Positions 10,757 through 13,399 of a stretch of DNA of 42,848 nt are shown here, piece after piece. Origin of the DNA: Candidatus Terrybacteria bacterium RIFCSPHIGHO2_01_FULL_48_17 (GTDB lineage Bacteria > Patescibacteriota > Minisyncoccia > Terrybacterales > 2-01-FULL-58-14); contig MHSS01000001.1 in the NCBI GenBank assembly GCA_001822835.1, forward strand, positions 37,297 through 80,144, written 5' to 3'. The notes under the pieces were generated by a model, which searched no databases, had not been told where the DNA came from, and was given only the letters and a program-made list of their open reading frames with translations. A program made the translations under genes and the position numbers. The stretch's first letter is position 1, and every line of letters begins with the position of its first letter.

Positions 10757-10778
10757 TTGGGCACGTAGCCCAACGGTA

Positions 10779-10798
10779 CCTGCCTACCGGCAGGCAGG
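10779..10798. repeat. REP-like palindromic insertion CCTGCCTACCGGCAGGCAGG in the tRNA D-loop
   Basis: CCTGCC-tacc-GGCAGG hairpin lying between D-loop AACGGTA and GAGC. Confidence 0.65.
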
Positions 10799-10808
10799 GA
10801 GCGCGAAG

Positions 10809-11050
10809 TCCCGAAAACGCCCGCGAGCTATAATATATTAATATATTAGGGATGCGTAGCTCAATTGGTTAGAGCGCCAAGCTTATACCTTGGTGGTTCC
10901 AGGTTCGAGTCCTGGCGCATCCATAAGCGAGTGGTTATGTTTTCGTGATCCCGTTGTCTCGCGGATATAAGATCAAAACACCGACCGGGCAATACGGGAA
11001 CTCGAAAACCTAAGCTCCGCAACTGCATGGGCTCAGCAAGATTTTCGGGA
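10809..11050 (+). other. Intervening sequence at the anticodon loop of the interrupted tRNA (intron-like or small insertion element), containing tRNA-Ile
   Basis: Ends TCCCGAAAA / TTTTCGGGA are perfect inverted repeats, extended to 12 bp (AAGTCCCGAAAA 10806-10817 / TTTTCGGGACTT 11042-11053) by flanking tRNA bases. Confidence 0.5.
10850..10923 (+). tRNA. tRNA-Ile(TAT)
   Basis: GGATGCG/CGCATCC acceptor, CCAAG-CTTATAC-CTTGG anticodon arm (anticodon TAT), CCAGG-TTCGAGT-CCTGG T-arm. Confidence 0.92.
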
Positions 11051-11122
11051 CTTATACCTTTGTGGTTCTAGGTTCGAATCCTAGCGTGCCCACCAAAATT
11101 TGGTTATAGTAATAAAAGTTGT

Positions 11123-11275: not shown

Positions 11276-11710
11276 TTAATAGTATGCGATTTTTTTCATC
11301 GAAGCAAAGGGCTCGGGTTGCGGATTCACAATAGGGCGGACGCGCCGGATATATGCGACCGCCTCATCCCAATCCATGCCTAAGCGGGTATGCAGCCACG
11401 TGGCAATAAAAGCCGTGCTGCGGCTAATGCCCATGGCACAATGCACGAGACATCGCTTCTTGAGTAAAACCATAAGGTCAAGAAACTGCAGTGCTGCCAC
11501 AAACGCAATCTCTGCGTCTTCGGGAATTGGCTTGGAATCGACAATCGGGAGTTTTGTGTACACAATTCCGGCCTTTTTATACTTCTTGCGCGGCACACGT
11601 ACCCAATCGGCGACACAGATTACCGCCTCTATATGCGCCTCTTTTAACGCTTTGATATTGCGGGCATCATGCCGATCCCCAATTGCAATCCATTCGGTAA
11701 CGAATTCCAC
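11276..11710 (-). CDS. Dual-specificity protein phosphatase family
   Basis: VHCAMGISRSTAFIATWL matches HCx5R; DSP fold order. Confidence 0.85.
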   Translation of the reverse strand: MEFVTEWIAIGDRHDARNIKALKEAHIEAVICVADWVRVPRKKYKKAGIVYTKLPIVDSKPIPEDAEIAFVAALQFLDLMVLLKKRCLVHCAMGISRSTAFIATWLHTRLGMDWDEAVAYIRRVRPIVNPQPEPFASMKKIAYY

Positions 11711-13315: not shown

Positions 13316-13399
13316 TGCCGGCGGCAGGACTTGAACCTGCAAGGAGTTTCCTCCAAGGGATTTTAAGTCCCTCGCGTATACCAATTCCGCCACGCCGGC
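13316..13399 (-). tRNA. tRNA-Leu(TAA)
   Basis: Class II tRNA with long variable arm; GGGA-CTTAAAA-TCCC anticodon arm; GCCGGCG acceptor. Confidence 0.95.

Follow-up and report, generated by a model that had tools for sequence, protein, structure and literature searches.

The nearest precedent for the arrangement described here is SegB, a GIY-YIG homing endonuclease that T-even phages encode in free-standing form next to tRNAs of many isotypes. It cleaves tRNA genes internally and drives the spread and duplication of the tRNA-segB unit (Brok-Volchanskaya 2008, as cited in PMC13096335). The small Parcubacterial open reading frames (ORFs) considered below share with SegB the GIY-YIG family and the tRNA gene as neighbour, whereas SegB, as far as it is described in PMC13096335, is phage-borne, occupies no broken tRNA and produces no scar with a nested tRNA; the ORFs of the Parcubacteria, of approximately 80-95 aa, are chromosomal and lie between broken and intact copies of the same tRNA. 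In CPR bacteria, rRNA genes contain many insertions, mostly at the tops or bases of stem-loops, and many of these carry homing endonucleases, some of which have been lost; they are mostly LAGLIDADG insertions or presumed spliced introns, a replacement gene is lacking, and the paper that describes them does not mention tRNA (PMC11270868). They resemble the present case in the bacterial group, in the choice of structural RNA genes as targets and in the occasional loss of the nuclease, and differ from it in their mostly LAGLIDADG or spliced character and in lacking a replacement gene. Group I introns of bacterial tRNA genes share with the present insert the anticodon-loop position, whereas the latter has no detected group I core and holds a whole replacement tRNA. 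Integrative elements insert in tRNA genes, restore one gene end and carry an integrase; as in the present locus, the target is a tRNA gene whose function is kept by element-borne sequence, but the present insert contains a complete second tRNA and no integrase. In Allomyces, the mitochondrial gene atp6 has reportedly been invaded by a homing-endonuclease ORF bringing a replacement gene end, so that the element supplies the missing part and a truncated copy is left behind, although the target there is a mitochondrial protein gene. Unusual introns in Patescibacterial tRNA genes may also have been discussed elsewhere. In the part of the literature that our search covered, no description of nested tRNAs or of tRNA-replacing homing elements in these bacteria was found.

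The window (the whole stretch of 42,848 nucleotides analysed) belongs to the genome of a Parcubacterium (G000), assembled in 16 contigs and 98.7% complete. The initial annotation had placed at 10759-11095 a tRNA-Ile(UAU) gene interrupted twice, and all its coordinates for this segment agree with the sequence (Table 1). Excision of both interruptions (10779-10798 and 10809-11050) restores a tRNA with anticodon UAU and an encoded 3'-terminal CCA, in which the acceptor strands GGGCACG (10759-10765) and CGTGCCC (11085-11091) pair throughout, as do the T-stem (5/5) and the anticodon stem (5/5, one G.U), while the D-stem retains three of four pairs. Altogether 20 of the 21 stem pairs are intact, the exception being C12.A23 in the D-stem, and the joined molecule ranks tRNA-Ile(UAU) first among the 43 isoacceptors of its own genome. 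In other Paceibacterial genomes the outer 3' half (11036-11095) has matches of up to 93% identity, mostly at intact tRNA-Ile(UAU) genes, and this resemblance to tRNA is far beyond chance. The hairpin forming the first interruption has no second copy anywhere in the window; hairpins also occur in the D-loops or T-loops of broken tRNA copies at other loci. ARAGORN in intron mode did not call the outer tRNA of the window, and one of its settings mis-joins the nested 5' half to the outer 3' half.

Table 1. Features of the interrupted tRNA-Ile(UAU) locus in the window, followed by the loci at which a GIY-YIG ORF lies between a broken tRNA 5' piece and an intact tRNA
Feature	Positions	Strand	Genome	Details
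Outer tRNA-Ile(UAU): acceptor 5' strand, D-stem 5' strand and D-loop	10759..10778	+	G000	GGGCACG-TA-GCCC-AACGGTA; 7/7 pairing with 11085-11091
Palindromic hairpin of 20 bp within outer D-loop	10779..10798	+	G000	CCTGCCTACCGGCAGGCAGG
Outer tRNA: D-stem 3' strand and anticodon stem 5' strand	10799..10808	+	G000	GAGC-G-CGAAG
Left arm of 12-bp perfect inverted repeat	10806..10817	+	G000	AAGTCCCGAAAA
Insert of 242 bp at anticodon stem/loop boundary	10809..11050	+	G000	Between tRNA positions 31 and 32; starts TCCCGAAAA, ends TTTTCGGGA
Intact nested tRNA-Ile(UAU), GGATGCG acceptor	10850..10923	+	G000	ARAGORN; Rfam tRNA 74 bits
Inner inverted repeat of insert, imperfect	10935..11013	+	G000	Arms 10935-10954 / 10994-11013; 85% complementary
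Right end of insert plus CTT, 23-mer	11031..11053	+	G000	Exact copy at G000:C2:105146
Right arm of 12-bp perfect inverted repeat	11042..11053	+	G000	TTTTCGGGACTT
Outer tRNA-Ile(UAU): anticodon loop to acceptor 3' end, encoded CCA	11051..11095	+	G000	Matches intact tRNA-Ile(UAU) genes across class
GIY-YIG ORF, Trp			G000, G002, G079	
GIY-YIG ORF, Pro			G001	
GIY-YIG ORF, Gln(CUG), Gln(UUG), Arg(CCU)			G002	
GIY-YIG ORF, fMet			G003	
GIY-YIG ORF, Val			G188	
GIY-YIG ORF, Ser			G119	
GIY-YIG ORF, Tyr			G260	

The second interruption is bounded by a perfect inverted repeat and encloses an intact tRNA-Ile(UAU), both as originally annotated, and this nested tRNA is the sole intact Ile(UAU) gene found in the genome. 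Inserts of the broken tRNA-Gly and tRNA-Ala copies in G000 are delimited by ends of the same TCCCGA/TCGGGA type. The right-arm sequence has three occurrences genome-wide, two of them at the window locus, and with up to three mismatches the 23-mer of the right end is present elsewhere in only one of 293 genomes of the class; a dispersed repeat was accordingly rejected as the entire source of the inverted repeat. No second full copy of the insert was found in G000, where only the right-end 23-mer recurs; that copy (G000:C2:105146-105168, locus L010) is intergenic and lies upstream of an EF-G-like gene. Neither a target-site duplication nor an integrase nor a GIY-YIG ORF was seen at the window insert, the three GIY-YIG matches of the genome being located on contigs C5, C8 and C13, and CCCG-type words showed no clear over-representation in the tRNA-rich stretches of G000.

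The same-family sample consists of G000 and Candidatus Terrybacteria RIFCSPLOWO2_01_FULL_58_14 (G001). The Ile(UAU) gene of the latter is 97% identical to the nested tRNA and is placed, as in the window, between tRNA-Val(GAC) and tRNA-Gly(GCC); its flanking sequences, GGGCCAG..CGGTA upstream and CGAATCCTGACAGGCCCACCA downstream, look like the decayed ends of an outer copy. Many tRNA-Ile(UAU) genes across the class have a GGGC-type acceptor, as in the outer copy, and match the outer 3' half, and the GGATGCG type of the nested gene was seen in G000, G001, G003 and G052 only. Since G052, a member of another family, has a GGATGCG gene with an orphan GGGC-type 3' half downstream, this distribution suggests that the GGATGCG type may have spread and displaced the GGGC type, the tRNAs being too short for a firm tree.

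Nesting of this kind recurs at other tRNA genes. A scan for orphan 3' halves of tRNAs for which a pairing acceptor lies upstream recovered Ala(UGC) and Gly(CCC) in G000, each enclosed by a broken tRNA for its own amino acid, and, in both G023 and G044, Val(UAC); in G000, Ser(UGA) is a fourth nested case, recognized by eye from GGTGGGA upstream pairing with TCCCACC downstream. In a set of five genomes (G000, G001, G003, G023 and Parcubacteria GW2011_GWB1_40_14, which belongs to the same order as G000 and is designated G002), a 5' piece of the same tRNA was significant upstream of 26 of 200 intact tRNAs, with about two expected (p<=0.01 against mismatched flanks); as three of these genomes were picked for kinship and G023 for an orphan half, such rates are not class-wide frequencies. 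Clear double-sided nesting was found in G003 for Thr(UGU) and Ile(GAU) and in G023 for Thr(UGU), Gln(CUG) and Val(UAC). Perfect inverted repeats of 13-18 bp, starting with TCCCG or CCCCG, delimit the inserts at the Thr, Ile(GAU) and Gln loci, and in several inserts the right arm contains the reverse complement of the initial 4-5 nt of the nested gene. The outer Thr gene of G003 is itself enclosed by a second inverted repeat, and on contig C8 of G023 (L052, minus strand, approximately 1400-1930) a layered tRNA-Val was observed with an inverted repeat at every layer, in the order truncated Val 5' half, second broken Val, intact Val(UAC) and orphan 3' halves; insertions therefore nest in earlier ones.

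Eight outer tRNAs were joined by hand for scoring, and in each case the top or tied-top score within its own genome fell on a tRNA of the nested tRNA's amino acid, the outer Ile(GAU) tying with Val. The Gly outer tRNA, once the inserts bounded by TCCCGA...TCGGGA are removed, keeps 20 of 21 pairs by manual count. The completeness of the joined halves at the window locus does not extend to several of the sister loci: the Thr outer of G003 is without the 5' anticodon stem, the Ala outer of G000 is without the D-arm and the 5' anticodon stem, and some outer copies elsewhere consist of a 5' piece only. Short inverted-repeat elements free of tRNA cargo, with ends CCCGTTAGA...TCTAACGGG similar to those of the nested-tRNA inserts, were also noted at L161:1300-1370 and L148:318-374 in G003 and at L175:557-634 in G023. 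At L054:1018-1156 of G002, a tRNA-Arg(UCU)-like gene contains a hairpin-rich anticodon-loop insert with no nested tRNA and is read by ARAGORN as an intron-bearing tRNA-Pyl; an intact Arg(UCU) is present elsewhere in that genome.

At several loci, a small GIY-YIG ORF separates the broken 5' piece from the intact tRNA (Table 1). Pfam confirmed the domain for four of these ORFs (E 1.6e-18 to 3.1e-14). In G079, the broken piece is identical to positions 1-36 of the intact tRNA-Trp, and the event is therefore recent. The search of the five genomes returned 27 GIY-YIG matches, from which four with long frames (436-494 aa), UvrC-like in appearance, were removed; 11 of the remaining 23 ORFs have a same-strand tRNA within approximately 135 bp, against a chance expectation roughly estimated at 2% per ORF (45 tRNAs, 300 bp per side, two strands, 800 kb). 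Used as a class-wide query, the Trp-linked GIY-YIG protein matched in 165 of 293 genomes. Thirty loci were taken, 21 of them with full flanks, and a same-strand tRNA lies within 150 bp at 15 of these 21, usually directly downstream of the ORF; because the set was picked by similarity to a tRNA-linked query, this figure describes the habit of that nuclease family, not of all GIY-YIG ORFs. Among the sampled loci, tRNA-Trp is the neighbour at all five closest matches of the Trp-linked ORF, the query locus counted. Another arrangement of tRNA and nuclease was observed at L185, L186, L194 and L198, where the GIY-YIG ORF lies approximately 90-135 bp downstream of an intact tRNA (Gln, Gln, Met and Ala, respectively) and no broken tRNA piece was detected.

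The anatomy of the window locus, the recurrent same-amino-acid nesting, the inverted-repeat ends of the inserts and the position of the GIY-YIG ORF in related loci are directly visible, and the nesting of a tRNA in a copy of itself, often with a small GIY-YIG ORF between, suggests that selfish elements enter tRNA genes and supply a working replacement. For the window locus we favour, with moderate confidence, the reading that it is the scar of such an invasion, left by a GIY-YIG homing cassette with a replacement tRNA, the resident copy being dead. A cassette with a complete tRNA-Ile(UAU) of the GGATGCG lineage would have entered the anticodon loop of a resident GGGC-type tRNA-Ile(UAU) gene; function would have passed to the cassette tRNA, and the split resident copy would now be dead and slowly decaying. 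By this scheme the GIY-YIG protein would cut the uninterrupted tRNA gene, double-strand-break repair would copy the cassette into the cut gene, that is, homing, and the cassette's own tRNA would keep the cell alive after insertion. The nesting would join tRNAs of the same amino acid because a cell could survive the disruption of a single-copy tRNA gene only when a substitute is supplied. Inserts without an ORF, such as that of the window, could be cassettes that lost the nuclease or that are moved in trans; loss of the ORF would leave the compact nested form seen here, in which the nested tRNA would be matured normally and the outer RNA would stay unjoined.

Several results count against the homing-cassette reading. 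Linkage between nuclease and target gene holds across these loci as a group but not at the window locus: the window insert has no GIY-YIG ORF, and none was seen at any Ile(UAU) gene. The small ORFs found elsewhere also show no obvious DNA-binding domain. Given that the ORF is missing from this insert and present in related loci, the window locus is probably a nuclease-less relic of homing-endonuclease elements rather than a member. The outer Ile and Gly copies are also well preserved for dead genes, and homing alone does not explain the perfect inverted ends of the compact inserts together with the reverse-complement tRNA start in the right arm. More tentatively, Paceibacterial (Parcubacteria) chromosomes might host a large class of selfish tRNA-replacement cassettes, consisting of a minimal GIY-YIG nuclease and a complete tRNA, that home into tRNA-gene loops and replace the resident with a foreign copy frequently enough to leave relics nested in relics. 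If true, homing elements would be turning over the essential, single-copy tRNA genes in a very large group of bacteria, and would need no intron because the replacement is carried along. This would account for the common broken halves, nested tRNAs, fast-changing acceptor stems and small GIY-YIG ORFs of these genomes, would provide directly testable candidate nucleases with predicted tRNA targets, and would caution that automatic annotation may take relics for introns or split tRNAs.

The good preservation of the outer Ile and Gly copies leaves room for a different reading, in which the joined outer tRNA is functional and the locus yields two tRNA-Ile(UAU), either by an unknown bacterial splicing mechanism or by RNase P/Z release of the nested tRNA and ligation across the 12-bp helix. 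The encoded CCA, the 20 of 21 stem pairs kept in both outers, the perfect inverted repeat carried at the splice points and the presence of the RNA ligase RtcB in G000 would all fit such a product. We nevertheless hold it to be improbable, as the isoacceptor is already supplied by the nested gene, several outers elsewhere have lost essential parts and could not form a tRNA if joined, and C12.A23 disrupts the U12-A23 pair, an Ile identity element in Escherichia coli. RtcB, moreover, is not conserved with the arrangement: of the five genomes searched it was found in G000 only and not in G001, G002, G003 or G023, at least three of which share the nesting, and RtcB-based joining is thus unsupported as a general mechanism. 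The initial annotation had also offered a small self-splicing intron as an option, and this found no support in Rfam, in which no intron family matched the locus at the gathering threshold or even at E<=10 and only tRNAs exceeded the threshold; a group I or group II intron was therefore rejected. The double interruption, the nested tRNA-Ile(UAU) and the absence of a canonical group I core that the same annotation had reported all stood. The Rfam check that it had recommended for group I/II introns and tmRNA found neither at the locus, and a tmRNA or permuted tmRNA was discarded in view of a separate tmRNA at G000:C2:52008-52380 (129 bits). Splicing of the outer tRNA, for which an archaeal bulge-helix-bulge route was also considered, is unsupported. 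Since defining features that were looked for did not appear, the window locus is classed neither as a group I intron nor as a split tRNA or tmRNA.

Among the options put forward at the outset, a MITE-like insertion or a decayed tRNA fits best, and the former can be framed as a rival to the homing cassette: a DNA element with TCCCGA...TCGGGA ends, unlinked to GIY-YIG nucleases, would have carried a tRNA by chance, with cell survival selecting insertions of the matching tRNA. The perfect terminal repeats, the related termini of the Gly and Ala inserts and the cargo-free elements of G003 and G023 agree with this, but elsewhere in G000 nothing beyond the right-end 23-mer was found, and the GIY-YIG ORFs at the same position would be left unexplained. 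A Y1 (IS200/REP) transposase was rejected as the general mover, as it was not found in three of the five genomes (G002, G003 and G023), and we regard an element unlinked to GIY-YIG as unlikely, though deserving more weight than a functional outer tRNA. Tandem tRNA arrays and decayed copies do exist in these genomes, and the locus could in principle have arisen by chance tandem duplication and decay or by an assembly chimera; this is very improbable, however, as the acceptors of the outer halves pair with each other and not with the nested gene, and loop-position nesting with inverted-repeat ends repeats in independent assemblies.

Some further observations concern the tRNA complement of G000 and the neighbourhood of the locus. 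The tRNA-Asn(GUU) was not found among the tRNA genes of its 16 contigs and may lie in an assembly gap or be interrupted. On contig C12 (L081:4240-4520), a broken copy resembling Gln, with a CCA anticodon like that of Trp and a T-loop interruption, lies upstream of an intact Gln(CUG), which is followed by a stray acceptor 3' end, TTAGCCCCGCAGC. At the start of contig C13 (L092, positions 1-200), a short type-I tRNA with anticodon UAA, called Leu by ARAGORN, is directly preceded by a sequence in two tandem copies that finishes like the 3' end of a tRNA (GATTCCCCCCCGCCGGCACCA); a normal long-armed Leu(UAA) is present besides it at 13316-13399 of the window. Finally, an ORF on the minus strand of the window (11276-11710), between tRNA-Phe and tRNA-Gly, contains by eye an HCxMGxSRS motif that resembles those of dual-specificity phosphatases.
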